The notes under the pieces: generated by a model | The model's input: only the letters and a program-made list of their open reading frames with translations | Told to the model about the DNA's origin: nothing | The model's database searches: none | Source of the DNA: an uncultured Eubacteriales bacterium | GTDB lineage: Bacteria; Bacillota; Clostridia; Christensenellales; Aristaeellaceae | Direction: 5' to 3' | Assembly (NCBI GenBank): GCA_902767565.1 | Contig: CACXHY010000003.1 | Location: 1 to 64,000, forward strand | DNA length: 64,000 bases | In this document: positions 7,571-49,461 of the stretch, piece after piece | Layout: the number at the start of each line of letters is the position of its first letter | How positions within the stretch are numbered: position 1 is the first letter of the stretch | Made by a program: the position numbers and the translations under genes

Positions 7571-7571
7571 C

Positions 7572-8480: not shown

Positions 8481-9581
8481 GGAGGACCGGAAAGGCTGGC
8501 CTCTGTTCAACCGGCTTCTGGCGGACTATATCGAGCTGACCCGTTTCCCGGAGCTGCCGGAACGCCCGAAACTGAACAAAAACTATGAATACTGGCCGGA
8601 GGGTGCCCTCTGCGCCAACGGCAATCCCTTTCACGGCTGCATCCGCCTGGGCAGCGCCAACAAGCTGATGATCGGCTTTTCCGGCGGCGGTGTTTCCGTG
8701 GACGAACACACCGCGGCCAGGCCTCAGCGTGTGGGTGGGCAGGGCGAGATGTTCTACTCCGACGACGTGCGGTTCGGGGATATCATTCCCAGGATCGGCA
8801 CATTCGGCCGTTCGAAAAAGAACCCCTTCCGGGAATGGAACCTGTTGTTTGTGCCTTATGCCACCGGGGACTTTCACTGCGGAACCGGAGATTTTCTCTA
8901 TACGGACCCGGATGGAAACCTGCTGTACTGCATCACCACGGCTATACGAATTTCCAGTTGCTGCTGAAAAAGATCAAGGAACTGGTTCCAAATCCGGAAC
9001 AGATCCTGGTGACCGGATTTTCTGCGGGAGCCTTCGCAACATCCCTGCTGACCGACGCAGTCGCCGCCGCGTTCCCGAAGTACCGGGATATTACCGCCTG
9101 TGTGGACAGCGCCATGATGCATTACGACTGGCAGCGGGTGGCTCGGGATGTCTGGAAAGCGCCGGAGGAGATCACGGCGCGCCTTACTGGAAACGAGATT
9201 GTCTCCGACAGTCTGCTCGCACTTCATAGGAACCATCCCGAGATCAGGATCATGTACTGCTGCTCCGTGCGGGATGCAGCGCTGACACAGATGGAAATGT
9301 ATCTGGAGGATGGCCGCTGGATCCCGGACAAGGCGGCTGGCGTGAGCTTCCAGCGGAAGCTAAAAGAAATGTTGGAGCTTTTGCAAAATGAGATCCCGGA
9401 TTTGAGCACATTTCTATTTGATACTCCGGACAAAAACAGCAAGGACGCTGACCTGACCGTTCACTGCCTTTGTGGTTCCAATGCCGCTTTCACTACTGTG
9501 GTGGACGGGGTAAGCTGCACCGATTGGATGATGCGTGGAGTCAGCGGTGAGGTGTTGAAGCTGGGCCTCGGATTGCTTTGA
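8458..9581 (+). pseudogene. Pectin acetylesterase/Notum-like hydrolase, frameshifted
   Basis: Two overlapping frames together make one protein. The first (8458-8967) carries the N-terminal part with FSGGGVSVDE and PFREWNLLFVPYATGDFH. The second (in frame from about 8930 to 9581) continues HHGYTNFQ... with the nucleophile GFSAGAFATSLL and ends normally. The intact paralogue at 17831 shows the expected continuous order (YATGDFH, then HTGYSNY, then GFSAGGFATSLL). The break falls near 8928-8936, around TACTGCATCACC, where a one-base loss or two-base gain explains it. It may be a true lesion or a sequencing error; the codon quality on both sides is still good, so any inactivation is recent. Confidence 0.85.
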
Positions 9582-33329: not shown

Positions 33330-33425
33330 AAAGGCACCCACAGCAACTGCCGATAGCTTAATTGGTGAAGCAGCTGATTCATCATCAGCCAATTTGGGTT
33401 CGAATCCCGATCGATATGGTGCCTT
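33330..33425 (+). ncRNA. Y-RNA-like unit 7, full tRNA-like module
   Basis: AAAGGCACC then cACAGCAA opens and GGTGCCTT (33418-33425) closes exactly. Between them are a D arm (TAGCTTAATTGGTGAAGCA), an anticodon arm GCTGA-TTCATCA-TCAGC with CAT at 33380-33382, and a T arm TTGGG-TTCGAAT-CCCGA: a complete tRNA core. The acceptor position is wrong for a tRNA, since only three base pairs next to the core form, and the longer closing stem lies outside it. This is the layout described for bacterial YrlA-type Y RNAs, a Ro-binding stem plus tRNA-mimicking module. It ends 35 bases before the rsr start. Confidence 0.78.
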
Positions 33426-33460
33426 GTCTTCAAAATCACACCCGTAAGGAGGGGAGAATC

Positions 33461-34951
33461 ATGTTGAATTACCTCAAGCAGGAAGCCAACCGGACAATGA
33501 CGGAGAACGGAGCGGTTACCCGTGCCACAGCGGGATCCGATTGTCTGGACTTTTTCGCGACCGTCGGCGCCCTGCGCAGACAGCCGGACGATGACATCGT
33601 CACCCGCTTTGTCCGCGCCTGGTCTGAAAATCCGGATCTTGCCATGAAGATTCTCTTCTACGCACGGGATATTCGCGGCGGTCTTGGTGAGCGCCGCATC
33701 TTCCGGGTAATCATGGAATGGCTGGCAGTCAATGTGCCGGCTTCCGTGAGAAAAAACCTGGTCAATGTCGCGGAGTATGGACGCTGGGATGACTTGCTGA
33801 CCTTGCTGAACACGCCCTGCGAAAAAGAGATGCTTTCCATTTTGCATAAGCAGTTTGAAATGGATATGAAAGCAATGGCGGCAGATGAGCCGGTGTCCCT
33901 GCTGGGAAAATGGCTGCCCTCTGTCAACACTTCCAACAGGCAGGCTGTTGCCCATGCAAAGCGGATCGCCCGGGTGTTGAATCTGACCGATGCGGAATAC
34001 CGTAAGGCGCTGACCGCCTTGCGGGCGCGCATCCGGATCATCGAAAACTATCTCCGCGAAAAGGATTACACTTTTGACTATGCCAAGCAGCCTTCCAGGG
34101 CCATGTTTAAGTACAAGAAGGCTTTCATCCGTAATGATGGAGAGCGTTATTCGCAGTTTCTGTCGGCTGTACAAAAGGGCGAGGCAAAACTCCACGCCGA
34201 TACCATGATGCCATATGAACTGGTGGCCCCGTATCTGACTTATGGTTGGAGTAATGGGAACAGGTCTTTCATGCGGGACATCACGCCCGAGGAAAAAGAG
34301 ACCCTGAATGCGACCTGGGCTTCCTTGCCTGACTTCGGCGGGGATGAGAATGCCCTGGCTGTCATTGATACCTCCGGTTCCATGTATGTAGAGACGGATC
34401 CGAAGCCTGCCGCAGTGGCGCTGTCTTTGGGCCTGTATTTTGCGGAGCGTAACAAAGGTGCTTTTGCCAACCATTTCATTGAGTTTTCGGCACACCCTGA
34501 GCTTATTGAAATCAAAGGCCAGACCTTTGCAGACCGGCTGCGGTATGTAGCATCTTTCAACGAAATCGCCAATACGAATCTCGAGTCGGTATTTGACCTG
34601 ATTCTTTCGGCAGCGGTAAAAAACCATGTGCCTCAGAAGGAACTCCCGGCCAAGCTGATCCTGATCTCTGATATGGAGTTTGACTGTTGCGTACAGAACG
34701 CCAATGCCACCAATTTCGAGAATGCGAAACGGAAGTTCGAAGCCTTTGGCTACGATTTGCCTCAGATCGTGTTCTGGAATGTGGCTTCCCGGAATCGTCA
34801 GCAGCCAGTCACGATGAATGAGCAGGGAGTTGCATTGGTGTCCGGCGCAACGCCCCGGCTGTTCTCCATGGTGGCAGGCGAATTGGCTACCCCTTATGCC
34901 CTGATGATGGAGATTCTGAGCAGCGAACGGTATGCGAAGATCTGCGCCTGA
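33461..34951 (+). CDS. rsr: Ro60 homologue (Rsr), TROVE and vWA protein
   Basis: A 496-residue bacterial Ro60/Rsr. The N-terminal two thirds are the helical-repeat TROVE ring that binds Y RNAs and misfolded RNA (ILFYARDIRGGLGERRIFR; WLPSVNTSNRQAVAHAKRI). The C-terminal part, from about residue 300, is a von Willebrand A domain with the MIDAS motif AVIDTSGSMY. The ATG at 33461 follows AAGGAGGGG; a 33-codon in-frame extension would run through RNA unit 7 and is rejected. Together with the upstream RNA array and downstream rtcB this is an RNA quality-control/repair locus. In other bacteria Rsr with Y RNA guides PNPase in rRNA and structured-RNA decay; no pnp gene lies here. Confidence 0.95.
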   Translation: MLNYLKQEANRTMTENGAVTRATAGSDCLDFFATVGALRRQPDDDIVTRFVRAWSENPDLAMKILFYARDIRGGLGERRIFRVIMEWLAVNVPASVRKNLVNVAEYGRWDDLLTLLNTPCEKEMLSILHKQFEMDMKAMAADEPVSLLGKWLPSVNTSNRQAVAHAKRIARVLNLTDAEYRKALTALRARIRIIENYLREKDYTFDYAKQPSRAMFKYKKAFIRNDGERYSQFLSAVQKGEAKLHADTMMPYELVAPYLTYGWSNGNRSFMRDITPEEKETLNATWASLPDFGGDENALAVIDTSGSMYVETDPKPAAVALSLGLYFAERNKGAFANHFIEFSAHPELIEIKGQTFADRLRYVASFNEIANTNLESVFDLILSAAVKNHVPQKELPAKLILISDMEFDCCVQNANATNFENAKRKFEAFGYDLPQIVFWNVASRNRQQPVTMNEQGVALVSGATPRLFSMVAGELATPYALMMEILSSERYAKICA

Positions 34952-34974: not shown

Positions 34975-35049
34975 TCGGCTGCTAAGTTGCCCGGGGACAA
35001 TGGACGCATAACCCATGCAGGTCGGTTCGACTCAGAATGCTACAGCCGA
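34975..35049 (+). ncRNA. tRNA-like element between rsr and rtcB
   Basis: TCGGCTG (34975-34981) pairs exactly with CAGCCGA (35043-35049), a 7-bp acceptor-type stem enclosing 75 bases in total. Inside are a D-like hairpin (TTG...CAA), an anticodon-like arm ATGGA-CGCATAA-CCCAT whose seven-base loop again carries CAT (35007-35009; one A-C mismatch in the stem), and a T-loop-like GGTTCGACTC whose stem pairs poorly. Five extra bases separate the T-like arm from the closing strand. It is not a functional tRNA by eye; a tRNA mimic or a further Y-type RNA is likely. Confidence 0.5.
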
Positions 35050-35113
35050 TTCATTCTGTAAATCCTGCGGACGCGGCGGGACGAAACAGACAACTAAACA
35101 GAGGAGCTTGCTT

Positions 35114-36316
35114 ATGGAAATCCGAGGCAAATATACCACCGCGATCTCCTATGCGAAGGAGATAGAAGAAGTCGCGGAACAGCAAATCAAAACCATGTGT
35201 GACCAGGCGTTCACAGAGGGCTGCCGTGTGCGAATCATGCCCGACGTGCACGCGGGAAAGGGCTGCACTATCGGCACCACCATGACCGTCCGGGGGAAAG
35301 CCGTTCCCAACGTGGTCGGTGTGGATATCGGCTGCGGGATGCTGACCACAAAGCTGGGCAACAAGCGGATCGACTGTGCCCGGGTCGATGAGATCTGCCA
35401 CTGGATCCCCAGCGGGATGAATGTCTGGGATTCACCCCGGGAACCCTTTGACCTGGAACAGCTGCGGTGCTATGAAAAGTTGTACAAGAAGACATGGCTG
35501 AAAAACTCCCTGGGCACTTTGGGCGGCGGCAATCATTTCATCGAAATCGACCGTTCGGAGAACGGCACGTACTGGCTTGTCATCCACTCCGGCAGCCGCA
35601 ATCTGGGGAAACAGGTCTGCGAATATTATCAGCAGCTGGCCATCGATATCGCGGAAGGCAAAGAAGCGTATTTTGAAGCAATGCCCAAGTTGATTGCCCG
35701 TCTGAAGGCTGAGGGACGGCAGACAGAAATCCAGAGTCAGCTGGAGCAGCTGAAGATCGAACTGAACCGGAAGGTTTCACCGGACAATCTGTGCCACCTC
35801 GAAGGGCAGCATCTGGAGGACTATCTGCATGATGTCAGGATTTGCCAGGCTTTTGCCCGCCGGAACCGGGAGATCATGACGGAGCTGATTCTGAAGAAGA
35901 CTGGCATGGTCGGTTTGGAAAGCTTCCATACGATCCACAACTACATCGATACGGATGAAATGATCCTGCGCAAAGGTGCTATTGCCGCTCATAAGGGCGA
36001 GCGTGTGCTGATTCCGATCAACATGCGGGACGGCAGCATCATCGCCATCGGCAGGGGGAACGAAGAATGGAATTACTCCGCTCCCCATGGGGCCGGCCGT
36101 ATCATGTCCCGAAAGAAAGCCCGGGACACGCTCAGCCTGGATGAATACAAAGCGTCCATGCAGGGAATCTATACCACTACCGCAACCTTGGAAACCATCG
36201 ATGAAGCGCCGATGGCCTATAAGCGAATGGACGACATCATTGATGCGATCCGTGAAGCTGTCGATATCGTGGAGATCATCAAGCCGGTTTACAACTTCAA
36301 GGCTGCGGAGAAATAG
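35114..36316 (+). CDS. rtcB: RtcB 3'-phosphate RNA ligase
   Basis: A 400-residue RtcB-family ligase, which joins RNA 2',3'-cyclic-phosphate or 3'-phosphate ends to 5'-OH ends using GTP and Mn2+. Metal and GTP site motifs are all present: VVGVDIGCGM (catalytic C), TLGGGNHFIEI, VIHSGSRNLG and YSAPHGAGRIMSR with the guanylylated histidine. Length is normal for the bacterial RtcB2-like group. ATG 35114 has GAGGAG upstream; the 33-codon extension from 35015 would overlap the tRNA-like element and is rejected. Co-location with rsr suggests repair of tRNAs or other RNAs cut by ribotoxins that leave cyclic-phosphate ends. Confidence 0.95.
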   Translation: MEIRGKYTTAISYAKEIEEVAEQQIKTMCDQAFTEGCRVRIMPDVHAGKGCTIGTTMTVRGKAVPNVVGVDIGCGMLTTKLGNKRIDCARVDEICHWIPSGMNVWDSPREPFDLEQLRCYEKLYKKTWLKNSLGTLGGGNHFIEIDRSENGTYWLVIHSGSRNLGKQVCEYYQQLAIDIAEGKEAYFEAMPKLIARLKAEGRQTEIQSQLEQLKIELNRKVSPDNLCHLEGQHLEDYLHDVRICQAFARRNREIMTELILKKTGMVGLESFHTIHNYIDTDEMILRKGAIAAHKGERVLIPINMRDGSIIAIGRGNEEWNYSAPHGAGRIMSRKKARDTLSLDEYKASMQGIYTTTATLETIDEAPMAYKRMDDIIDAIREAVDIVEIIKPVYNFKAAEK

Positions 36317-37680: not shown

Positions 37681-37980
37681 ATGAAGATCTATTTCACCAT
37701 CGCGGGCACGAAGCACCACTACGGGCAGGAGTTCATGGAAAAGGACATGAAAGTCCGCCTGAAGAAGGAGCCGAACAACGAGTATGACGCCGAGGCCATC
37801 AAGGTCATGATGGAAGGGCTCGGACATGTCGGCTATGTCGCGAACAGCCCGTACACCGTGCTGGGCGAGAGCTACAGCGCCGGTAGGCTGTACGACAAGA
37901 TCGGCGACACGGCCGAGGGCGCGATCCTGTATGTGCTGGACAAGGGCGTGCTGTGCTTCCTGGAGATGGAGGACGCCTGA
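37681..37980 (+). CDS. HIRAN-domain protein
   Basis: A 99-residue single-domain protein. The fold signature is IAGTKHHYGQEFM, then VRLKKEPNNEYDAEAIKV with the conserved N-x-x-D-x-x-A-I of HIRAN domains, and GHVGYVANSPYTV. HIRAN domains bind single-stranded DNA ends or 3' termini in SNF2/HLTF helicases; stand-alone bacterial versions are frequent near nucleases and helicases. GGAGG precedes the start. Function here is unknown; a link to the nearby nucleic-acid repair genes is only suggested by position. Confidence 0.85.
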   Translation: MKIYFTIAGTKHHYGQEFMEKDMKVRLKKEPNNEYDAEAIKVMMEGLGHVGYVANSPYTVLGESYSAGRLYDKIGDTAEGAILYVLDKGVLCFLEMEDA

Positions 37981-38626: not shown

Positions 38627-38699
38627 GATCCCTTCGTTCAATCGGACAGGACACCGCCCATCTGAGGCGGTCATGTGGGTTCGAGTCCCTCAGGGATTG
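38627..38699 (+). tRNA. tRNA-like, anticodon TCT (Arg?), atypical
   Basis: Acceptor GATCCCT pairs with AGGGATT (one G-U), D arm GTTC...GGAC, anticodon arm CCGCC-CATCTGA-GGCGG, T arm GTGGG-TTCGAGT-CCCTC with one T-T mismatch. The loop places A instead of the near-universal U at position 33, and the anticodon would be TCT (Arg). The fold is complete but the loop is abnormal, so it may be non-functional or a mimic. Confidence 0.6.
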
Positions 38700-38700
38700 C

Positions 38701-38771
38701 AGCAGGATGGTGCAGCGACAGCACGGCCGGCTTTGACCCGGCAGACAAAGGTTCGAATCCTTTTCCCGACG
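38701..38771 (+). tRNA. tRNA-Gln(TTG)-like with defective acceptor stem
   Basis: D arm GTGC-AGCGACA-GCAC, anticodon arm GCCGG-CTTTGAC-CCGGC giving TTG (Gln), and T arm AAAGG-TTCGAAT-CCTTT are all perfect. The acceptor strand AGCAGGA matches TCCCGAC at only four of seven positions. Either the gene is decaying or the product is a tRNA mimic. It begins one or two bases after the preceding element. Confidence 0.65.
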
Positions 38772-38774
38772 TTT

Positions 38775-38848
38775 GGTTCCGTAGCCGAGAGGTCAGGCAG
38801 CAGACTGCAAATCTGTGTACATCCGTTCGAATCGGATCGGAACCTCCA
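38775..38848 (+). tRNA. tRNA-Cys(GCA)
   Basis: Acceptor GGTTCCG pairs exactly with CGGAACC. The anticodon loop is CTGCAAA (GCA), T arm ATCCG-TTCGAAT-CGGAT, discriminator T as expected for Cys, followed by an encoded CCA (38846-38848). Confidence 0.92.
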
Positions 38849-38851
38849 TAT

Positions 38852-38936
38852 GGAGTGATAGTCTAATGGGAAGGCACCTCCCTGCTAAGGAGGCGGCGCA
38901 GCAATGTGCCTGAGCGTTCGAGTCACTCTCACTCCG
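38852..38936 (+). tRNA. tRNA-Ser(GCT)
   Basis: Acceptor GGAGTGA pairs with TCACTCC. Anticodon arm CCTCC-CTGCTAA-GGAGG (GCT), a long class II variable arm, and discriminator G typical of Ser. The T stem has one mismatch. Confidence 0.9.
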
Positions 38937-38941
38937 TTTCT

Positions 38942-39024
38942 GCGCAGGTGGCGGAATGGCAGACGCGCCGGAATCAGACTCCGGTGTCCGCGAGGACGTG
39001 CGGGTTCAAGTCCCGCCCTGCGCG
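38942..39024 (+). tRNA. tRNA-Leu(CAG)
   Basis: Acceptor GCGCAGG pairs exactly with CCTGCGC. Anticodon arm CCGGA-ATCAGAC-TCCGG (CAG), class II variable arm, T arm GCGGG-TTCAAGT-CCCGC. The discriminator reads G rather than the usual A of Leu tRNAs. Confidence 0.88.
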
Positions 39025-39027
39025 CAT

Positions 39028-39100
39028 ACGCCTTTAGCTCAGCGGTCAGAGCACTTGCCTTATAAGCAAGCGGTCACAGGTTCGATTCCTGTAAGGCGCA
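39028..39100 (+). tRNA. tRNA-Ile(TAT)
   Basis: Acceptor ACGCCTT against AAGGCGC pairs at six of seven positions (A-C at the first). D arm GCTC...GAGC, anticodon arm CTTGC-CTTATAA-GCAAG giving TAT, T arm ACAGG-TTCGATT-CCTGT. A TAT anticodon for AUA is unusual in bacteria, which normally use a lysidine-modified CAT tRNA; it is met mainly on phages and other elements and in a few lineages. Confidence 0.82.
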
Positions 39101-39103
39101 CAT

Positions 39104-39177
39104 GTTGGGGGCAGCTCAATTGGAAGAGCGCCGGATTGTGGCTCCGGAGGCTGCCGGTTCGAACCCGGTCCCTCAAC
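39104..39177 (+). tRNA. tRNA-His(GTG)
   Basis: Anticodon arm CCGGA-TTGTGGC-TCCGG (GTG), acceptor TTGGGGG with CCCTCAA, plus the His-specific extra pair G-1 (39104) with C73 (39177). T arm GCCGG-TTCGAAC-CCGGT. It is the last gene of the cluster, and the convergent minus-strand operon ends 100 bases further on. Confidence 0.9.
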
Positions 39178-39279
39178 CTTTTTCGAATCGATAAGCAATA
39201 GCAATGTGTGTTTTGCCCGGCATACATTCTGCATCTTTTGCGAGGCGCATATCATACAATTGTTATCTCGTGTCCTGAA

Positions 39280-41121
39280 TCAGTTGACATGAATCGTCCC
39301 TGCAGTTCGTAAATGCTCTCCGACAGAACCGATAATAATCCTGTCAAATTCGTGATCGTAGCAATAGTATATCCGCTGGTGCTCGGCGCCGGCTTTATGC
39401 GCACGCAGCTTAACGTGAGGCTCCATGGAAACCTCTTTGCCTTCATAAACATCCTTGCGCAGGTTCATGATCTTGTTGTCTTTTCGTGACTGGTTTCCTT
39501 CGCCCATCGCCGCTTCGATGCCGGTTGCGGCCATGAACTCGCTTTCCACATCCGGCCTGTGAGCGTGATGCAGGTCATACAGCGCGGTGGCCATCTGATA
39601 AAGGTAATACCACAAGCCTTCGGGCTTGATCTCGCATCTGCATGCTGTTTTGATCCCGCGTTCCGTAAAAGCGATGCGGTCTCCGAAGACATTCAAGAAA
39701 TAGTTGACCACTTCTTCGTTTGTCGCGGGGAGTTCCTGCATGCTTCGAAGCGTTTCGACGGCTGAACGGATCGCTCTGGCTTCCCGGTTTTCCTGCTCCA
39801 GATGCAGGATCCGGGCGTTTGCGGTTCGCAGTTCTGCTTCGTGTTCTTCATATTCTCTGTAGAGCTGCTCGTTCCGCGCCTTTTCCGCGGCCTCCCCGCG
39901 CTTATACTCAGACAAGAGCTGTTCACGGAGTTCATCGATTTTGCGGGCTTTGTTGTCGCTCTCTGCCTGAAGCTGGTCGATTTTCAGGTTCAACTTGTCA
40001 AGTTTTTCTTCAGTCTTCAAATTACCCGAAGCTCTGATCTGGTTGATCTGTTCCCGGCTTTCGATGCTTCGCGCATCGTATTCAAACACCACACCACCAA
40101 AGGTGTATTTCCGGTCTTTGGAGAAAGCGTGCGTATACTGCCAGATCTGCTGCATTACATCCCTGCCGTCTTTCCCGAGGATTCGGATCGTTCTCCCAAA
40201 CCGCTTTGGTTCCACAAGAAGGACGTCGCCTGGGGTGTAATCCTTCTTCAGGCGCTTTACCAGCTGCGCATGCATTTGTTCGGAAACCCGAAATGTGATC
40301 GCATGCCCGAAACTGTGAGATGCGATGTCGTCTGCATCAAAAGGATAATACTGTTCCAAAATCGGGATGGGCAGACATGCGGTAGGAAACAGCACAGGAG
40401 GCGGCACAGGCATGTTTGCGGGAAACGGTATCCTGTTCGGGTTGGCATTGGACTTCTCCTGAGGCAGACGGATGGCCTGTGTAATCAGGACAACTGGCAT
40501 CGTGCACTCGCTGCTCTCCAGAAGATTCCTTAAGGGACGCAACTGTTCCTCGTTCTCCGCAATCAGTGCCTTTTGATATGGCAGTTCTGTTGTTGCGTGC
40601 GTCAGCGTGATGTCCTGTGCCGCGTGCAGAACGCGCACAAAACGCGGTCTGAAAGCAAAATCGACTTCGGGCGTCTCATCCGGATCCGTCACAACAATTC
40701 TGATTCCAAGCTCAACCTGCTGATTATTCATCACATGCAGGCCAACGTTGGTTGTAAAGAATCGTCCGGGGACGGCTTTGCGCTGGCTTGTATCTGAATC
40801 AGGCTCCTTCAGGCGCAAAGACCAAATTCCATGCTCCGGCAATGAAACCACATATGCCGAAAACCCGGAGTTGATCGTAAACGATTTCAAGTCCGATGGA
40901 TTGATGGCAAAGGAAGACTGCTGCCCGGGGAGTTTCAAGATCTCTTCCGGAATCACATCCGTTTCCCGGAGACGCTGCTTCAGCCAGTCAATAACACACA
41001 GAACACCGAAGCAGAAGCATTCTTCAGCAGATGCATTCTGTTTTTGCATCGTACAGTAAAACTGATATCCGGGATACTCACGAGCCCGGGGCAATTTGCG
41101 AGCAGGAAAAAACTCGGACAT
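39280..41121 (-). CDS. Large coiled-coil protein of unknown function
   Basis: About 613 residues, not recognised. The N-terminal 330 residues are mixed alpha/beta (FSAYVVSLPEHGIWSLRLKEPD; YPFDADDIASHSFGHAITF) with repeated beta-rich patterns. Residues about 360-445 form a long charged coiled coil (EKLDKLNLKIDQLQAESDNK; YREYEEHEAELRTANARI). The C-terminal end has KLRAHKAGAEHQRIYYCYD and IIIGSVGEHLRT, reminiscent of a small RelE/ParE-like toxin fold, but only weakly. ATG 41121 is preferred over 41130, as AGGAG lies directly before the latter. It is last in an operon with the PLD-helicase and DUF6998 genes, 34 bases downstream, which suggests a common, perhaps defensive, task. Confidence 0.6.
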   Translation of the reverse strand: MSEFFPARKLPRAREYPGYQFYCTMQKQNASAEECFCFGVLCVIDWLKQRLRETDVIPEEILKLPGQQSSFAINPSDLKSFTINSGFSAYVVSLPEHGIWSLRLKEPDSDTSQRKAVPGRFFTTNVGLHVMNNQQVELGIRIVVTDPDETPEVDFAFRPRFVRVLHAAQDITLTHATTELPYQKALIAENEEQLRPLRNLLESSECTMPVVLITQAIRLPQEKSNANPNRIPFPANMPVPPPVLFPTACLPIPILEQYYPFDADDIASHSFGHAITFRVSEQMHAQLVKRLKKDYTPGDVLLVEPKRFGRTIRILGKDGRDVMQQIWQYTHAFSKDRKYTFGGVVFEYDARSIESREQINQIRASGNLKTEEKLDKLNLKIDQLQAESDNKARKIDELREQLLSEYKRGEAAEKARNEQLYREYEEHEAELRTANARILHLEQENREARAIRSAVETLRSMQELPATNEEVVNYFLNVFGDRIAFTERGIKTACRCEIKPEGLWYYLYQMATALYDLHHAHRPDVESEFMAATGIEAAMGEGNQSRKDNKIMNLRKDVYEGKEVSMEPHVKLRAHKAGAEHQRIYYCYDHEFDRIIIGSVGEHLRTAGTIHVN

Positions 41122-41155
41122 AGTAGTCATCTCCTGACGAAAGTACTTTAGCAGT

Positions 41156-44100
41156 TTACCCCATCGCCTGCTGCACCGTCCGCAGATACTTTGCCGGGAT
41201 CGGCTTTTCCAGCTGCCACACGATGCTCATGGGCTTGCTGCCGCTGTGATAGAGGTAGGTGGCCTGGCCGAGGAAGGTGTAAGGCGCTGTGCCGAGGGCG
41301 TCGCGCTTGAACTCGCGGACGAAGAGCAGGATGCGGCCATGCTTTTCGGCATGGTGGATGTAGCGCTGACCGGTGGGGCTGTCGGCAGCTGTGGTGGACT
41401 GGCTCTGCCAGTGGAAGAGTGTCGGGCTGATGGCGTAGTCCTCGTAGAGCGTGGTGGGAGAATAATCCTTGTCGCTCTTGTTGAGCGTGATGAGGAAGAC
41501 GTCCGTCTTCTTGTCCGGCAGGTAGAGCACGCCCTGTCGCATGGCGCTGTAATTCCTGTAGTCAAGGGCCGCCAGGAGCTGGCGCTGGGTGTAGGTGCAG
41601 TGGACGTCCAGCGGGCATTCGAAGCCCAGGTCGGTGGTGGAGTCCACAAAGTCGATGTGGTTGTACTGCCAGCGGAGCAGATCCCGGAGCTCCGCCAGAA
41701 GGACGGGGCTGTCCGCCAGGGTGTAGAGGCGCTCCAGCACCTCGTCGCTGTCCCAATCTTCGGCGTATTCGTCCCAGACGGTCATGTAAAACATCTGCAG
41801 CATCCGCTGCTCCAGCGGCGGCAGGCGGGCGAAATCCACGTTATCCAGACGGGAGAGGATGTCCAGCAGGAAGGCGATCCAGCGGCGGCTGTCGAAGGCG
41901 GTGAAGCGGTACATGACCCGGCTGAGCAGGGGCTCGACCGCTTCTGAGAAGTCGTCCCGGGCATCGGCCTCCACGCAGAGCCGGGAGAAGGTGAGGCCCT
42001 TGCCGTAGATGTGGGTGGGCGTCAGGTGATACCAATCCAGGAAGCCGTCGAATGTCAACGGCCTGCCTGTGTCCTCAGTGTAGGTGCGGAGACGGCTGAC
42101 CAGCTCGCTGTGACCGCGGAAGCTCCTGCTGATGTTGTCCAGCACCGCCCGGGCAGCCTTCTTCTCCAGCTGGATATAGCAGCCCCGGGGTGCGCCGGTG
42201 AAGCCGCGCTCGATCTCTTCCCGGACGCTGTGGTGATGATCGCGCAGCAGGGCAGCGAACTTCTCCTCGAAGTTGTAGCGGCGGTTGGCGGCGCCAATGA
42301 AGTCCAGCACGGTCAGGCAGTCCTTGCCCTCGCTCAAGCGCAGACCGCGGCCCAGCTGCTGCAGGAAGATGGTCAGAGACTCCGTCGGCCGCAGGAACAG
42401 CACGGTGTTGACCTCGGGGATATCAACGCCCTCGTTGTACAGATCCACCACGAAGATGACCTTGACCTCACCCCTGACCAGCCGATCCCGGGCGGTGCGA
42501 CGGTCCTCGTCAGAGGAGTGGCTGTCCAGCGCCATGGACGGGATGCCGACAGCGTTGAAGCGATCCGCCATGAAATGTGCGTGCTCCACCGTCACGCAGA
42601 AGCCGAGGGCCTTCACCTCGTCCATGTCAGCGGCATAGCGAACCATGCTCTGCGCCACATGCTCAGCGCGGCGCAGGGCTGCGGCGCCGGACAGGGTGTA
42701 GCGGTTGCTGAGCTCCGCCCGGTCGTAACCGCCGCGCGCCCATTTCAAGTCATCCAAGTCGATGGTGTCCGACACGCCGAAGTATTGGAAGGGGCAGAGG
42801 AGCTTCCGGTCGATGGCTTCCGGCAAGCGGATCTCCGCGGCGATCCGGTGGTTGAAGAAGGCCAGGATGCTCTTGCCGTCCATGCGCTCCGGTGTGGCGG
42901 TCAGGCCCAGCAGCACCTTCGGCGTGAAGGTCTCCAGCGCTTCCGCATAGGAATCCGCGGCGGCGTGATGCGTCTCGTCGATGACGATGTAGTCGTAATA
43001 GTCCGGCGGAAGCCGCTTCCACAGGGCCTGGGAATTCATCGTCTGCACGGAGACGAACAGATTGTCGAGGTGCTCCGCCTGATGACCGCCCACCCAAAGC
43101 TCGCCGAAATTGGCGTCCTTCAGCACGCCCTGGAAGGTGGCCAGGCTCTGCTTGAGGATCTCCTCCCGGTGGGCGATGAAGAGAAGGCGGTTGTTTTCCC
43201 TCGGATGCGCCTTCCGCCAGCCGCGGTAATCCAGTGCTGCGATGACGGTCTTGCCGGTGCCGGTGGCTGCTACCACCAGGTTCCGCCAGGAGCCCCGCAC
43301 CTCGCGCTCCGCCCGGAGCTGGTCCAGGATCGCCTGCTGGTAGGGATAGGGACGGATGTCGAACAGAAGAAGCTGCTGCTCACCCTTGTGTTTCTCGCCC
43401 TTCAGCGCCTCCGCCAGCCGCGGGTGCGCATCGGTGGTGTAGGGTTCAAACTCATCCGAGTTCCAATAGCTGTCAAAGGTAGCGTTGATCTTTCGCAGCG
43501 TGTCTGGCTGATCCACCGCCGTCAGCTTCAGGTTCCACTCCAGGCCGTTGCTCATGGCAGCGTTGGATAGGTTGGAGGAGCCCACATAGGCCGTGGTGAA
43601 ACCGGTGTCCCGGCAGAAGACATAGGTCTTGGCGTGCAGCCGGGTGCGCTTCGTATCATAGCTGACCTTGATCTCGGTGTGCGGCAGCGCGGCCAGCTCG
43701 TCGATGGCTTTTACCTCCGTCGCACCCATGTAGGACGTGGTGATGACCCGCAGCAGGCCGCCCCGCGCCGTGAATTCCCGTAGGGCGTCGATGATCAGCC
43801 GGAGTCCGCTCCACTTGACGAAGGATACCAGCATGTCGATCCGGTCGGCGCTGACGATCTCCTTCTGCAGCTCTGTGAACATCTGCGGCTCGTGCGGCGC
43901 GCCGGTGAAAAGGCTGCTGACGGCCATGGGCGTCTCCGGCCGTGGCAGCTTAGCCGCTGTGTTCCCGGCGATGCGCTCCGGGTCGTTCTCCCGCAGGATC
44001 CGCAGCAGTTTCTCCGCCCGCTCGTCCACGGACTTCTCCGCGATGTCCTCCCGTTGCTCCGACAGCACCCCCAGCACCCGGTTCACCAGCGCGATCTGCT

Positions 44101-44284
44101 CCCCGGTGCCCGCCGGCATGGCTTCCAGCGCCGTCCGCACAGCCTCCGCCACATATCCGGCCAGGGCCTGCGGCGCTTCGGTTTCATCCAGCTTTTCGAC
44201 GTGCTTGCAGGCATCGGAAACCGTAGCCAACTCGCGGGACAGCGATTGGCTGATAATTTGGTCGTAGAGGCCGGGTTTCAGCAT
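41156..44284 (-). CDS. PLD nuclease-helicase with DUF3427 domain
   Basis: A 1,042-residue protein. Residues about 110-290 form a phospholipase-D-like nuclease domain (FTGAPHEPQMFTELQKEI; HAKTYVFCRDTGFTTAYVGSSNLSNAAM is its HxK...GSSN active-site region). About 320-770 is an SF2 helicase with Walker A VVAATGTGKT, IDETHH as motif II, GLTATPERMDG, and C-terminal motifs LFLRPTESLTIFLQQLGRGLR. The last 300 residues are DUF3427 (ISPTLFHWQSQSTT). Start 44284 follows AAGGAGG; the upstream extension is rejected. Helicases of this composition occur in defence islands and may process foreign DNA. It lies between a DUF6998-like gene and a coiled-coil gene in one operon. Confidence 0.92.
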   Translation of the reverse strand: MLKPGLYDQIISQSLSRELATVSDACKHVEKLDETEAPQALAGYVAEAVRTALEAMPAGTGEQIALVNRVLGVLSEQREDIAEKSVDERAEKLLRILRENDPERIAGNTAAKLPRPETPMAVSSLFTGAPHEPQMFTELQKEIVSADRIDMLVSFVKWSGLRLIIDALREFTARGGLLRVITTSYMGATEVKAIDELAALPHTEIKVSYDTKRTRLHAKTYVFCRDTGFTTAYVGSSNLSNAAMSNGLEWNLKLTAVDQPDTLRKINATFDSYWNSDEFEPYTTDAHPRLAEALKGEKHKGEQQLLLFDIRPYPYQQAILDQLRAEREVRGSWRNLVVAATGTGKTVIAALDYRGWRKAHPRENNRLLFIAHREEILKQSLATFQGVLKDANFGELWVGGHQAEHLDNLFVSVQTMNSQALWKRLPPDYYDYIVIDETHHAAADSYAEALETFTPKVLLGLTATPERMDGKSILAFFNHRIAAEIRLPEAIDRKLLCPFQYFGVSDTIDLDDLKWARGGYDRAELSNRYTLSGAAALRRAEHVAQSMVRYAADMDEVKALGFCVTVEHAHFMADRFNAVGIPSMALDSHSSDEDRRTARDRLVRGEVKVIFVVDLYNEGVDIPEVNTVLFLRPTESLTIFLQQLGRGLRLSEGKDCLTVLDFIGAANRRYNFEEKFAALLRDHHHSVREEIERGFTGAPRGCYIQLEKKAARAVLDNISRSFRGHSELVSRLRTYTEDTGRPLTFDGFLDWYHLTPTHIYGKGLTFSRLCVEADARDDFSEAVEPLLSRVMYRFTAFDSRRWIAFLLDILSRLDNVDFARLPPLEQRMLQMFYMTVWDEYAEDWDSDEVLERLYTLADSPVLLAELRDLLRWQYNHIDFVDSTTDLGFECPLDVHCTYTQRQLLAALDYRNYSAMRQGVLYLPDKKTDVFLITLNKSDKDYSPTTLYEDYAISPTLFHWQSQSTTAADSPTGQRYIHHAEKHGRILLFVREFKRDALGTAPYTFLGQATYLYHSGSKPMSIVWQLEKPIPAKYLRTVQQAMG

Positions 44285-44312
44285 GGGGAGACCTCCTTGA
44301 TGATGGCTTCTT

Positions 44313-44771
44313 TCAGGTTCCGTGCGGTGAATCTCCCAAATCAGAGGTGGCTTTAATTCGGTCAGAAGGTTGAACACGTATGCTCTTAAGGATACTCAAA
44401 CGAATTGTCCGATAACCGTTTTTCTGCATTTTGCCGCTCATTTCCCAAGGAATCCTACCTGGGCCGTTGTAAATCTCCTCAATCAGTCCGCTTTGATCGA
44501 CTCGAAGCACAATCAGGCACTCGGGCATGCTGGATAGCACGATCCGATCCCTCTGCGTGGTTTTGATTTGCACTTCATGACCATCTTTGTCATATGCATC
44601 ATGCTTCTTATGACTGGCTTCATAGAGCTCAAGGGCATAGTTTTCCTTTGCGTAAACTTCGCCAATACTCCCGAGCATGTGACCGTCTGGTGTAAAGTGA
44701 CGTCCCGGATAATGACGCTCCAATTCATTTGATAAAGCGAATATTTGCCGGATGATTTCTGTAACTGTCAT
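44313..44771 (-). CDS. DUF6998-like protein
   Basis: A 152-residue protein with a helical start and the core TPDGHMLGSIGEVYAKENYAL, then HDAYDKDGHEVQIKTTQRD and CLIVLRVD, NGPGRIPWE. The arrangement E...D-G-x-x-V-Q-I-K-T resembles the D-(x)-ExK heart of restriction-endonuclease-like folds and matches the DUF6998 group as I recall it; nuclease activity is inferred only. First gene of the three-gene minus-strand operon, directly after its promoter. Confidence 0.75.
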   Translation of the reverse strand: MTVTEIIRQIFALSNELERHYPGRHFTPDGHMLGSIGEVYAKENYALELYEASHKKHDAYDKDGHEVQIKTTQRDRIVLSSMPECLIVLRVDQSGLIEEIYNGPGRIPWEMSGKMQKNGYRTIRLSILKSIRVQPSDRIKATSDLGDSPHGT

Positions 44772-45101
44772 GATGGATCAGCCTTTCTTTATGTAACGCA
44801 AGCATCTCTCTTTGCGCCGTTTTCATCCCTATAATCCGTATTCACTGCCAAGAAGATTCTACTATTGGCGTCCGAGAATGTCAATCGATTCATGTCCGCA
44901 AATGAGCAGGAACAATATGATGCTGACAAATTGCAGCATCGTGCATTGTAGAATGGTAAACGACAAAGGTGAGGATTCGCAGGAGCACGGCACGATCGGG
45001 CCGATATTTCCACTTTTCCGCCAGTGTGTTTTATGGTATCATATGGCCAAACCTCCATTATGATCCGGCAGCGCTAGAATACTGCCTGAAAGGGATCCGT
45101 C
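44772..45101. other. Divergent intergenic region
   Basis: 330 bases between divergent operons. It contains the strong minus-strand promoter at 44856-44884. For the plus strand a TATCAT box near 45037 is a weak -10 candidate. Nothing else is seen. Confidence 0.5.
44856..44884 (-). promoter_or_regulatory. Promoter of the putative defence operon
   Basis: On the minus strand TTGACA (44879-44884), 17 bases, TAGAAT (44856-44861), a near-consensus vegetative promoter 85 bases before the DUF6998-like gene. No operator palindrome is visible, so expression may be constitutive. Confidence 0.8.
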
Positions 45102-45992
45102 ATGATCGTCAGCAAATCCGCAGTGATCGTAGAAGTAAAGAAGCCATCAAAAGAGATTGTTGATATCCGGGATTCCCTCCTCACCGCCCGCGACACCCCT
45201 CTCTCCGTCTGGCAGACCCTCATGCAAAACCCTGCTTTCGGCTGGGAAGCCATCTGCATGGTCTGGCAGTCGGAGGGGCGGCGGTTTTCCGTGTCCCGCG
45301 GCGGGATCTGCCGGGGTGCGGACGGGTGTGTGATGCAGCCGGCGGGGCCGGTCAGCCTGGCGCATCCGGTGGAGATGGACGCAGCGGAGATCATGCACTG
45401 GCGTCGGTGGCTGTGGGAGGAGCATCTGACGCAGCCCGTCCTGCAAATGATGGAGCCGGTGGTGCTGCAGAACGGGCGGATCCCCGGAGAGTATCGGACG
45501 GTGGCGTCCGCCGGCACGGAGTACGAGATGTGCGCACGGTATGAGGGTTATCGGTTGTATCTGACCGCCATGCCTGAGCTGGAGGCGATGGGCTGCCGGT
45601 TTGTCGTGCGGCGGCGCTGGGACGATGACGCGCATACCTGGGCGGAGATCGAGCTGGTCCACATCATCACCCCGGCAGGGATCCTGTACGGATGCAAGCC
45701 GAACCAGAAGATGAAAGAGCTGGGAGCGAGCAAGAACCGCGGGCTGCGCCTGGGGCTCTTTTACCCGTTCCCGGGGACGCGCTTGCGCGTGCTGAACCAT
45801 GTGACGGCCATGCTGGAAACGCATCTTCTGCAGGAGTGCCTGACGCGGGATGACCTGGAAATGCTCCTGCCGCACCTGTCCTGCATGACGGAGGAGGAGC
45901 TGCTCGCGTTTCGTCAGCGGAGCAAGCCGGGCTCCCGATGCCGCGCCATGCTGGAGCGGATCCTCGCCCGAAAGGAGGCCTCGCCATGCTGA
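45102..45992 (+). CDS. Hypothetical protein (DUF4132-like fragment?)
   Basis: A 296-residue protein. Motifs such as LAHPVEMDAAEIMHWRRWLW, LTQPVLQMMEPVVLQNGR, and RRRWDDDAHTWAEIELVHI faintly recall the C-terminal part of DUF4132 (WGR/SWIM-associated) proteins, where a substrate-like beta domain follows a helix pair. I would not assign a function. It heads a co-directional cluster with a SWIM protein, a DUF2779 protein and a VWA protein, overlapping the SWIM gene by seven bases, so they should be produced together. Confidence 0.6.
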   Translation: MIVSKSAVIVEVKKPSKEIVDIRDSLLTARDTPLSVWQTLMQNPAFGWEAICMVWQSEGRRFSVSRGGICRGADGCVMQPAGPVSLAHPVEMDAAEIMHWRRWLWEEHLTQPVLQMMEPVVLQNGRIPGEYRTVASAGTEYEMCARYEGYRLYLTAMPELEAMGCRFVVRRRWDDDAHTWAEIELVHIITPAGILYGCKPNQKMKELGASKNRGLRLGLFYPFPGTRLRVLNHVTAMLETHLLQECLTRDDLEMLLPHLSCMTEEELLAFRQRSKPGSRCRAMLERILARKEASPC

Positions 45993-46525
45993 AGTGGACA
46001 GACCGGTTCGACGGTCCGATCATCGGACGCGGCAGGACGTTGGTGAAGGAAGGCGCAGTGGTCGGCCTGCACCGCTCGCCGCCAGGCTGGCAGGCGATGG
46101 TGGTGGGAACGGAGCTCTACAGCGTCACGGTGCAGATCGAGAGAGGGCAGGCGGCTGGCACCGGCTGCACCTGTCCCTACGCGGCGCACGGGGAGAACTG
46201 CAAGCACATGGCCGCCGTCTTCTTCATCCTCGAGGGGCGCTTCCCGGACATCATCAAAGACGATGACGCCGCCCTGACTGCCCGGCTGGATGAGCTTTCG
46301 CCGGACGAAGTCGAGGATGCCCTGCAGTTCGCCATCGAGTGCGGGAGCACCCGGTGCATCGCGATCCTGCTGAACCGCCGGAGCGCGGCCGATCAGCCGA
46401 AGTTCTCCCCCGACGAGTTCACGCTGGATGATATCCCGGAGGACGCGCTGCCCGGCACAAGGGCCGACGTGCAGGGCGATAATGATCCGATGAAACTGCT
46501 GTTTCCCGAAGACTATGCGGTCTGA
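45986..46525 (+). CDS. SWIM zinc-finger protein
   Basis: A 179-residue protein. Residues about 40-75 contain a SWIM zinc finger, GCTCPYAAHGENCKHMAAV (C-x-C-x8-C-x-H), preceded by the beta strands common to SWIM proteins (YSVTVQIERG). The C-terminal half is acidic and helical. SWIM domains bind DNA or proteins and accompany SWI2/SNF2 helicases and VWA/MoxR systems. ATG 45986 has AAAGGAGG upstream and overlaps the previous gene. Probably a component of the same complex as the VWA protein downstream. Confidence 0.85.
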   Translation: MLKWTDRFDGPIIGRGRTLVKEGAVVGLHRSPPGWQAMVVGTELYSVTVQIERGQAAGTGCTCPYAAHGENCKHMAAVFFILEGRFPDIIKDDDAALTARLDELSPDEVEDALQFAIECGSTRCIAILLNRRSAADQPKFSPDEFTLDDIPEDALPGTRADVQGDNDPMKLLFPEDYAV

Positions 46526-46543
46526 TCCGCAGGAGGATGTGCC

Positions 46544-48022
46544 ATGCTGTACCTGTCCAAATCCAAATACTGCTCCGCCGTCCAGTGCCCGAAGCTGCTC
46601 TGGCTCTCGAAGTACATGCCCGAGACAGTGGAGGCCGACCCCGCCAACCAGGCCGTGCTGGATCGGGGCAGCGCCGTGGGCGACCTTGCCATGGGGCTCT
46701 TCGGCGAGTATGTGGAAGTGCCCTTTGGCGATTTGACGGACATGATCCGGGAGACGGAGCGCCTGCTGGAAGCCGGCACGCCGGTCATCACCGAGGCCTC
46801 CTTCTCGCTGAACGGCCTGTTCTGCAGCGTGGACATCCTGCTGAACCACGGCGGGAAGCGCGTCTCCGTGGTGGAGGTCAAGAGCGCCACCCATGTGTCC
46901 GACATTAACCGGCACGACGCGTCCTTCCAGTACTATGTGCTGACCGGGCTGGGCTACGACGTGACCCAGATCAGCCTCTGCTGCCTGAACCCGGCTTATG
47001 TGCGGCAGGGACCGCTGGAGCTGGACAAGCTCTTCCTGCTGACGGATGTCACGGCCGATGTGCGGGCGATGCAGGTCGGCGTCGCGGAGCGCATCGATAT
47101 GCTCCGCACCTACATGGAGCAGACGGATGAGCCGCCGCGGGAGATCGGCGAGCAGTGCTTCTCGCCCTATGCCTGCCCGTGCTTCGGCTGGTGCACGAGG
47201 GCACTCCCCAGGCCGAACATCTTTGACATCAGCGGGATCCAGACGCGGACGAAGCTGGCAAACTACCGCAAGGGCATCGTTTCGTTTGAGGACATCGAGG
47301 CGAAAAAGGCGCTGAAGCCCGACCGCCTGATCGAGGTCAGCCAGGCTCTGCGCGACCTTCCGCCGGTGATCGACCGGGAGGCGATCCGCGGCTTTCTAGA
47401 TCAGCTGACGTATCCGCTGTATTTCCTGGACTTCGAGTCCTTCATGCCCGCCGTGCCGCTGTACGACGGCTGCCGGCCCTATGAGCAGATCGTCTTCCAG
47501 TACTCCCTGCACTGCATCGAACGCGAGGGCGGCGAACTGCAGCACCGGGAGTTCCTGGCCCAGCCCGGCGAGGACCCGCGCCGCGGCGTGGCGGAGCAGC
47601 TGTGCCGGGACATTCCGCGGAATGTCTGCGTGCTCGCCTACAACATGACCTTCGAGAAGACCCGCATCAAGGGCCTGGCCGCGCTGTATCCCGACCTGGC
47701 GGATCATCTGATGAACATCCATGACCACATCGTCGACCTGATGGTGCCCTTCCAGAAGAAGCACTACTACACCCGCGCCATGCAGGGCTCCTACTCCATC
47801 AAGTACGTCCTGCCGGCCCTCTTCCCGGACGATCCGTCGCTGGATTACCACAACCTGGAGGGCGTCCACAACGGCAGCGAGGCCTCCGCGGCTTTTGAGA
47901 GCATGGACAAAATGGACCCGGATGAGCGGGAAGAATTCAGGCGGAACCTGCTCAAATACTGTGGGCTGGATACTTTGGCGATGGTGAAGGTGTGGGAGAA
48001 ACTGAGGGAAGTGACGCAATGA
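46544..48022 (+). CDS. DUF2779 nuclease-like protein
   Basis: A 492-residue protein. The N-terminal half has a Cas4/RecB-like PD-(D/E)xK pattern: SFSLNGLFCSVDILL, then SVVEVKSATHVSD, and cysteines at CFSPYACPCFGWC that could hold an iron-sulfur cluster with the N-terminal C in YCSAVQCPKL. The C-terminal half is DUF2779, an RNase-H-like exonuclease-type fold with LYFLDFESFMPAVPLY, LAYNMTFEKTRIKGLA, HDHIVDLMVPF and YCGLDTLAMVKV supplying the acidic residues. GGAGG precedes the ATG. Probably a DNA-processing enzyme; the pathway is unknown. Its stop overlaps the next start (ATGA). Confidence 0.85.
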   Translation: MLYLSKSKYCSAVQCPKLLWLSKYMPETVEADPANQAVLDRGSAVGDLAMGLFGEYVEVPFGDLTDMIRETERLLEAGTPVITEASFSLNGLFCSVDILLNHGGKRVSVVEVKSATHVSDINRHDASFQYYVLTGLGYDVTQISLCCLNPAYVRQGPLELDKLFLLTDVTADVRAMQVGVAERIDMLRTYMEQTDEPPREIGEQCFSPYACPCFGWCTRALPRPNIFDISGIQTRTKLANYRKGIVSFEDIEAKKALKPDRLIEVSQALRDLPPVIDREAIRGFLDQLTYPLYFLDFESFMPAVPLYDGCRPYEQIVFQYSLHCIEREGGELQHREFLAQPGEDPRRGVAEQLCRDIPRNVCVLAYNMTFEKTRIKGLAALYPDLADHLMNIHDHIVDLMVPFQKKHYYTRAMQGSYSIKYVLPALFPDDPSLDYHNLEGVHNGSEASAAFESMDKMDPDEREEFRRNLLKYCGLDTLAMVKVWEKLREVTQ

Positions 48023-49461
48023 ATGCCGTGCAGGCACGGACGGAGATCTCCGAGCGCGTCTTTTCGCAGGTGAAGACGATCCTGATCCTGAACATGCGCT
48101 TTCTGGACATGGCCGTTTTCCGCTTGCAGCCGATACCGGCGGAGGTCTCGCTGGCAACGGATGGCGCGCGGCTATATTACAAGCCGGACTGGCTGCTGCG
48201 GCGCTACCGGGATGAGAGCGCGGCGGTGGTTCGGGATTATCTGCACGTGCTCCTCCACTGCATCTTCCGCCATCCCTTCGTCCATACGCTGGTGGATCAT
48301 AACCTATGGAACCTCGCCTGCGACATGGCGGTGGAAGCCATGATCTGCGACTTCCATCTCTCCCAGGCTGCGACTGCCGACGAGGCGAAGAAGAAGGCCG
48401 CCCTGGCGCAGATCCAGGCACAGGTGAGGCCCTTCACCGCGGAGAAGCTCTATCATCACTTCCAGACACACAAGCTGAATGCAGCCTGGGCGAAACTTTT
48501 TCATGCCGATGAGCACGATATCTGGTACAAGCCGCAGGAGCAGGCCAATACTCCGTCGGGCGGATCAGGCAATGGAAAGCCGCAGTCCAGCCCGGACCGA
48601 TCCTCCGAAAACAATAGCAATGGCGATCCGCAGGCGGACAGCGGAGCGGGTGATCCGAATCAGACGGACATGCCCGAAAACCAATCCGGCGGGGACGGCA
48701 ACGCGACGAATCAGCCCATCACCCGGGATCAGCTGGAGCAGGAGTGGCGGGACATCAGCGAGCATGTGCAGATGGATTTGGAGACCTTCGCCAGTCAGCA
48801 GGGCACTGAAGCCGGGCATATGCTCCAGATGCTCAGCGAGCTCAACCGGGAGCGATACAACTACGAGACCTTCCTGAAGAAGTTCGCCACCCTCGGCGAG
48901 GTAATGAAGATCAACGACGATGAGTTCGACTACATCTTCTACACCTACGGCCTGAAGCTCTTCGGCAACATGCCGCTGATTGAGCCGCTGGAATACAAGG
49001 AGGTCAAGCGCGTCCGGGAGTTCGTCATCGCCATCGACACCTCCGGCTCCACCAGCGGTGAACTGGTTGCGATATTTCTTAACAAGACATACAATATCCT
49101 CATGAGCACGGAGAGCTTTTTCTCCAAGGTGAACATCCACATCATCCAGTGCGACGCGCAGATACAAGAGGCCGCAAAAATAACCGACCGCGCCGACTTC
49201 GAGGCTTACCTGAAGCGCATGACCATTAAGGGCCTCGGCGGCACGGACTTCCGCCCGGTGTTCAGCTATGTCGATCAGCTGATCCGGCAACATGAGTTCC
49301 GCCACCTGAAGGGCCTTATCTACTTCACCGACGGTTACGGCACCTTCCCGGAGCAAAAGCCGGAGTACAAGACAGCGTTTGTGTTCATGCAGGATGAGTT
49401 TGAGAACGTGAAGGTGCCCGGGTGGGCGATGAAGGTGGTTTTGGAGAGGGACGAAGTGTAG
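48019..49461 (+). CDS. VWA-like / metallopeptidase-fold protein (DUF2201)
   Basis: About 480 residues. The N-terminal domain (to about 160) is the putative metallopeptidase fold of DUF2201 proteins; its helix reads VRDYLHVLLHCIFRHPF, a partial HxxxH arrangement. A low-complexity linker (about 180-230, rich in S, G, N, Q) follows. The C-terminal part is a VWA-like domain with FVIAIDTSGSTSG as its metal site and GGTDFRPVFSYVD and IYFTDGYGTFP. Such proteins pair with a MoxR-type AAA+ ATPase. That partner is present only as a stub at 50004, so the system appears incomplete here. Confidence 0.86.
   Translation: MNAVQARTEISERVFSQVKTILILNMRFLDMAVFRLQPIPAEVSLATDGARLYYKPDWLLRRYRDESAAVVRDYLHVLLHCIFRHPFVHTLVDHNLWNLACDMAVEAMICDFHLSQAATADEAKKKAALAQIQAQVRPFTAEKLYHHFQTHKLNAAWAKLFHADEHDIWYKPQEQANTPSGGSGNGKPQSSPDRSSENNSNGDPQADSGAGDPNQTDMPENQSGGDGNATNQPITRDQLEQEWRDISEHVQMDLETFASQQGTEAGHMLQMLSELNRERYNYETFLKKFATLGEVMKINDDEFDYIFYTYGLKLFGNMPLIEPLEYKEVKRVREFVIAIDTSGSTSGELVAIFLNKTYNILMSTESFFSKVNIHIIQCDAQIQEAAKITDRADFEAYLKRMTIKGLGGTDFRPVFSYVDQLIRQHEFRHLKGLIYFTDGYGTFPEQKPEYKTAFVFMQDEFENVKVPGWAMKVVLERDEV

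Follow-up and report, generated by a model that had tools for sequence, protein, structure and literature searches.

A compact run of three genes on the minus strand of the 64,000-nucleotide stretch of DNA analysed here (the window), which comes from an uncultured member of the Clostridia of gut type, was proposed, in an original prediction made from the letters alone, to be a three-gene defence operon that matches no nameable defence system. The locus raises the question of whether the three genes constitute one conserved system, or whether separate modules with individual functions have come to lie side by side.

Layout of the locus

The three minus-strand open reading frames were confirmed and are tightly spaced downstream of a sigma-70-like promoter (Table 1), with intergenic gaps of 28 nt between genes 1 and 2 and 34 nt between genes 2 and 3. 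Gene 2 most likely starts with the ATG at 44284, which is preceded by AAGGAGG, and gene 3 at 41121. The near-consensus promoter of the original prediction is present, with a score of 11/12 that was equalled in 14/5000 shuffles of the 300 bp upstream region; scanning both strands of the window gave three sites of this score in total. The promoter of gene 1 exceeds chance expectation, and genes 1 to 3 may share a common transcript in this genome.

Table 1. Features of the locus, with positions in the window or residue numbers
Feature	Position	Strand	Description or basis
Gene 1	44313..44771	(-)	DUF6998 protein, 152 aa; PF22522
Gene 2	41156..44284	(-)	SauUSI-like type IV restriction enzyme (by sequence), 1042 aa
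Gene 3	39280..41121	(-)	HEC-07-family protein, 613 aa
Promoter ahead of gene 1	44856..44884	(-)	TTGACA-17-TAGAAT, 11/12 match
Conserved N-terminal region of gene 3 (residues 1-405), proposed as sensor	39907..41121	(-)	Homologue conservation
Helical and coiled-coil linker of gene 3 (residues 351-460)	39742..40071	(-)	Model helices 351-363, 371-460
Gene 3 residues 459-613, predicted RelE/YoeB-like (BECR) domain	39283..39747	(-)	AF2 model, structure matches
Gene 2 PLD nuclease motifs	HAK at 217, GSSNLS at 235		By sequence
Gene 2 SF2 helicase motifs	TGTGKT 341, DETHH 436, TATP 462, QLGRG 643		By sequence
Seven-tRNA cluster bordering the locus, possible insertion site	38627..39178	(+)	ARAGORN, Rfam

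The restriction enzyme and the DUF6998 protein

In gene 2, Pfam places PLDc_2, ResIII, Helicase_C and DUF3427 in this order in one chain, and gene 1 matches PF22522 (DUF6998) with an E-value of 8.6e-45 (152.5 bits, cut-off 27); the domains of both proteins had been rightly read. Gene 2 further matches the PADLOC profile mREase_IV (PDLC03659) with 786 bits over residues 113-1033, and the SauUSI structure 7CLG with an E-value of 4.4e-85 over residues 141-763. Judged from its sequence, gene 2 belongs over its full length to the SauUSI-like type IV restriction enzymes and can therefore be named as a defence gene, contrary to the original description of the locus; it normally stands alone. Its architecture is that of an enzyme that would restrict modified foreign DNA, an activity taken from the family.

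The core of gene 1, HDAYDKDGHEVQIKTTQ, probably represents a PD-(D/E)XK nuclease site as read by eye; the one further pointer to this reading is a weak match to PADLOC mREase_II (E-value 0.0019). The gene is rare, with 7/200 genomes of the family sample, 1/245 of the class sample and 3/388 of the phylum sample (own genome counted), and gene 1 queries gave no match in viral contigs. Where the downstream side is readable, DUF6998 genes often precede an SF2-helicase enzyme, which we treat as a lead, as counter-examples exist. DUF6998, a MazG-like protein and an SF2 helicase form a tight operon with overlapping ends in L062 (108-3339), and follow one another in the same order in L057 (3641-6833); in L058, DUF6998 lies upstream of HNH and SNF2 helicase, and on a Roseomonas plasmid (L107) it is found 114 bp upstream of a type ISP enzyme.

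This recurrence raises the possibility of a functional link between genes 1 and 2, in which DUF6998 would assist the SauUSI-like enzyme as a nuclease or regulate it, gene 3 being a neighbour only. While the 28-nt spacing and the helicase, HNH/SNF2 and type ISP contexts just described favour such cooperation, about 20 relatives of gene 2 in the family have no DUF6998 alongside, the helicases adjoining DUF6998 belong to different families, and several plasmid DUF6998 genes have no annotated helicase alongside; we regard this explanation as rather doubtful.

Gene 3 and its relatives

Gene 3, originally held to be unrecognised, falls in the PADLOC family HEC-07 (PDLC04161), which it matches in an N-terminal and a C-terminal stretch with an E-value of 5.5e-25 (the measure by which the match was judged), and its C-terminus matches that of Menshen NsnC with an E-value of 4.4e-9. 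HEC-07 was also matched by 9/10 of the gene 3 relatives tested, and end to end by a 529-aa relative from a Klebsiella plasmid. The HECs are Hma-embedded candidates found by guilt-by-embedding, of which some members have been validated (PMC12988326); the literature covered, which did not include the preprint 10.1101/2024.01.29.577857, held no published mechanism for HEC-07.

Searches of genome contigs with gene 3 yielded two full relatives and one fragment. In viral contigs, gene 3 found one fragment (L077) and the other gene 3 queries no match; in plasmids, neither the full length nor the N-terminus gave a match, and the C-terminus gave weak matches only, including the Klebsiella plasmid relative. 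Sequence searches of the PDB with gene 3 profiles returned chance matches or none.

The length of 613 residues and the coiled coil had been correctly called, the latter lying at about residues 351-460. When the relatives are aligned, the first 405 residues are conserved and the coiled-coil linker is of variable length. Two unrelated C-terminal modules occur among relatives sharing the N-terminal region, namely the type present in the window, also found in L049, L050, L089 and L090, and a second type with the motif GHYK...TxSDxRxxKN, found in L051-L054, which also terminates the proteins of L093 and L094; in L093, it is joined to a HEC-07-like N-terminus. As the C-terminus is exchanged while the N-terminus is kept, a layout of sensor and exchangeable effector is suggested. 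More tentatively, and with less than even confidence, HEC-07 proteins in general might be single-chain immune receptors composed of a conserved N-terminal sensor, a coiled coil and a killing domain that can be exchanged; of the two kinds of killing domain, the RelE/YoeB-like one would occur here, and the other, so far unnamed, has the GHYK-type motif.

A HicA-like assignment of the second module was supported by neither Pfam nor the PDB. The full-length model of gene 3 was poor (pLDDT 49, with residues 1-405 mostly under 50), and for this reason thioredoxin and START-like matches of the N-terminus were discarded.

In L050, the gene 3 relative (7646-9499) is located directly behind a 1083-aa SbcC/RAD50-like ATPase (4350-7601) with LmuB similarity; the two could represent a two-gene variant.

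The C-terminal domain of gene 3

The C-terminal module (residues 459-613, 155 residues) was modelled alone by AF2 from three sequences, with a pLDDT of 79.5 and a pTM of 0.77. Among the PDB structural matches listed, 50/50 belong to the RelE/ParE superfamily, with Z-scores of 4.5-6.7, including RelE (2kc8; Z 6.7, rmsd 3.2, 89 aligned), YafQ (4mmj; Z 6.7) and the CARF-RelE protein Cami1 (Z 4.9); the best Foldseek matches were to the same families (E-values 0.035-0.1). That all Z-scores are below 8 and no Foldseek E-value is better than 0.035 speaks against a BECR assignment; the scores are moderate, yet a merely common arrangement would not usually be expected to fill the list with one superfamily. 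Pfam searches with five C-termini gave no match at E-values up to 10, and no RelE-family profile, which marks the domain as divergent. The faint RelE-type resemblance noticed in the original prediction is backed by structure prediction, which supports a RelE/YoeB/YafQ (BECR) fold for the last 155 residues.

Further support comes from PtuZ, encoded by the third gene of its operon alongside a DUF262 protein and an ATPase, for whose C-terminus a YoeB-like BECR prediction has been published (PMC11980606). Partners of these two kinds are also found in Menshen (PMC10952713), so that NsnC is probably PtuZ, and as the C-terminus of NsnC matches gene 3, the call for PtuZ would constitute independent support for the fold proposed here.

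FTERGxK stands at the start of the module, where the first strand and helix lie, and H569, K571, R583 and H603 are candidate active-site residues. In an unsupervised sequence alignment, R583 and H603 align with Arg and His of Citrobacter YoeB; a comparison of the C-terminus with one YoeB by hhalign did not yield a usable score. A BECR fold devoid of RNase activity, as in a ParE-like gyrase inhibitor or an inactive RNA-binding domain, would accord with ParE toxins sharing the fold (listed at lower Z) and with a catalytic assignment drawn from sequence alignment alone. We consider it unlikely, given that R583 and H603, at the positions of the catalytic Arg and His of YoeB, are conserved in 10/10 and 9/10 homologues, respectively, and that the top structural matches are mostly RNases (RelE, YafQ, YoeB).

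A type II toxin-antitoxin module was also considered and rejected, the RelE-like part being the end of a 613-aa protein and not a small toxin. No antitoxin-size gene lies between gene 3 and either the tRNA cluster or gene 2; control must therefore lie within gene 3 or come from another factor.

Distribution of the three genes

Each of the three proteins was searched for in one and the same set of 200 genomes from the family of the window (Aristaeellaceae). Gene 2 was found in 27/200, gene 3 in 9/200 and gene 1 in 7/200, and any two of them are adjacent in the window's own genome only. Genes 2 and 3 are on separate contigs in G044, G192 and G139, as are genes 1 and 3 in G175; adjacency is most nearly approached in G108, where 9 kb separates genes 1 and 2 on a shared contig. 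In ORF maps of about 36 neighbourhoods, combined with tblastn, by which fragments were detectable, no partner was found beside any homologue, and about 20 gene 2 relatives of the family genomes have unrelated neighbours. When 308 family genomes were searched, G630 (68% identity) and G617 were found to carry further relatives of gene 3, with genes 1 and 2 absent beside them, and the closest gene 3 homologue (L089, 68% identity) has neither on its 6.5-kb contig. As some neighbourhoods stop at contig edges, single cases are weak, but the whole set is consistent. Occurrence of genes 2 and 3 in a common genome is slightly above expectation (3/8, Fisher p 0.07). GC3 is 46% for gene 1, 86% for gene 2 and 59% for gene 3, against mostly 78-89% for close neighbours; by this contrast, gene 2 looks long-resident, and genes 1 and 3 look like later arrivals.

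A conserved three-gene system was rejected on the basis of the 200 family genomes, the neighbourhood maps and tblastn, as the genes do not co-occur, an outcome that the original prediction had itself named as refuting it. What stands of the proposed defence operon is that all three genes look defence-related; that they form a single compact system does not survive the comparison of genomes. We consider it likely that the locus is a grouping of separate modules of the defence-island type, made up of a stand-alone SauUSI-like enzyme, a HEC-07-type abortive-infection protein and a probable small nuclease, although the close spacing and the one strong promoter are compatible with a functional operon in this genome. 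A true but lineage-specific three-gene system, in which restriction would come first and the RelE-like gene 3 would serve as a fail-safe that halts translation once restriction is overwhelmed, has in its favour the one strand, the 28- and 34-nt gaps and the single strong promoter, but is very improbable, as none of the searched genomes held a second example, base composition differs between the genes, and the contig of the closest gene 3 homologue carries neither gene 1 nor gene 2. Unless neighbours are compared across genomes, the compactness and good promoter of an operon can give the false impression of a system.

Surroundings of the locus

At the tRNA cluster bordering the locus, relatives were too divergent for an empty-site comparison. 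On contig C5 of the same genome, a 44-residue remnant of another gene 3 C-terminus (L056:6702-6827, 68-71% identity) lies at a distance of about 4 kb from a further tRNA cluster, which is consistent with turnover of gene 3 near tRNA genes. Just upstream of the seven-tRNA cluster, a stand-alone 99-aa HIRAN-domain protein is encoded (37681-37980, plus strand), with a weak match to PADLOC PDC-M03B. Adjoining the locus on its other side, a divergent cluster (45102-49461, plus strand) encodes DUF4132-like, SWIM zinc finger, DUF2779 and DUF2201/VWA proteins, of which the SWIM zinc finger protein weakly matches PADLOC PDC-S62; this is possibly another conflict or stress system.

A further element (33331-33426, plus strand) contains a 'tRNA-Met' (33347-33418) flanked by the inverted repeat AAGGCACC...GGTGCCTT, and is located about 35 nt upstream of a DUF2828/DUF7788 gene (33461-34951), which is followed by RtcB (35015-36316). 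In its RNA fold, a tRNA-like shape is enclosed by an outer stem, and Rfam identifies it as tRNA only. This stem and the T-arm (AAAGGCACC..AGCAA ... GGTTCGAATCCC ... GGTGCCTT) recur ahead of the homologous DUF2828/DUF7788 gene in two other genomes (L154 and L155), where ARAGORN calls no tRNA. The element resembles a YrlA-like Y-RNA, a mimic of tRNA that would belong to an RNA-repair operon.

Proposed mechanism

With the locus read as a grouping of separate modules, gene 2 would destroy modified foreign DNA, and gene 3 would act separately when triggered. The C-terminal domain of gene 2 would recognise modified bases of incoming DNA, whereupon the SF2 motor would translocate using ATP and the PLD nuclease would cut; gene 1 may be a small accessory nuclease that accompanies helicase-type restriction enzymes. 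The N-terminal region of gene 3 is presumed to sense an infection signal, which the coiled coil would relay, unless it serves to oligomerise the protein. The RelE/YoeB-like domain, kept inactive by the protein's own N-terminal part until triggered, would then cleave mRNA, probably in the ribosomal A-site, where RelE-type enzymes act (PMC11980606), so that translation would stop and growth would halt in an abortive outcome.

Gene 2 and the gene grouping are in themselves ordinary. The main new point is a plausible, testable mechanism for HEC-07, a catalogued but apparently unexplained family of defence candidates, whose proteins appear to carry at their C-terminus a toxin domain amenable to expression and mutagenesis on its own, and whose domain-swapping relatives point to the remainder of gene 3 as the infection sensor.

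Comparison with known systems

SauUSI comprises a PLD nuclease, an SF2 ATPase and a C-terminal recognition domain annotated as DUF3427 (PMC7913695; PMC3874153). Gene 2 likewise combines a PLD nuclease, an SF2 helicase-like ATPase and a C-terminal DUF3427-type recognition region in a single polypeptide, but has about 95 additional N-terminal residues; its match to SauUSI stops at residue 763, short of the SauUSI recognition domain, and the last E of the SauUSI PLD motif HxK(x)4E, represented in gene 2 by HAK at 217, is replaced by C.

The C-terminal domain of gene 3 is homologous to that of Menshen NsnC and, by prediction, of the YoeB-like kind proposed for PtuZ. PtuZ has a PIN-like N-terminus and two partner genes, whereas the N-terminus of gene 3 is of another kind and DUF262 or ATPase partners are missing, and Menshen membership was rejected, as the DUF262 protein and the OLD-type ATPase are missing and only the NsnC C-terminal domain is in common. 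In Cami1, as proposed for gene 3, a sensor domain is fused to a RelE-type domain, but no CARF domain was detected in gene 3. CoCoNuTs, which are McrBC-related type IV systems, are built on McrB and McrC (PMC11090510); membership in CoCoNuT or McrBC systems was rejected, as genes 1-3 contain no McrB GTPase or McrC domain, while the occurrence of coiled coils together with RelE-like domains in the context of type IV restriction is shared. HEC-07, finally, is named for embedding in Hma systems, a context that this locus does not provide, whereas gene 3 itself matches both the N-terminal and the C-terminal part of the family profile.
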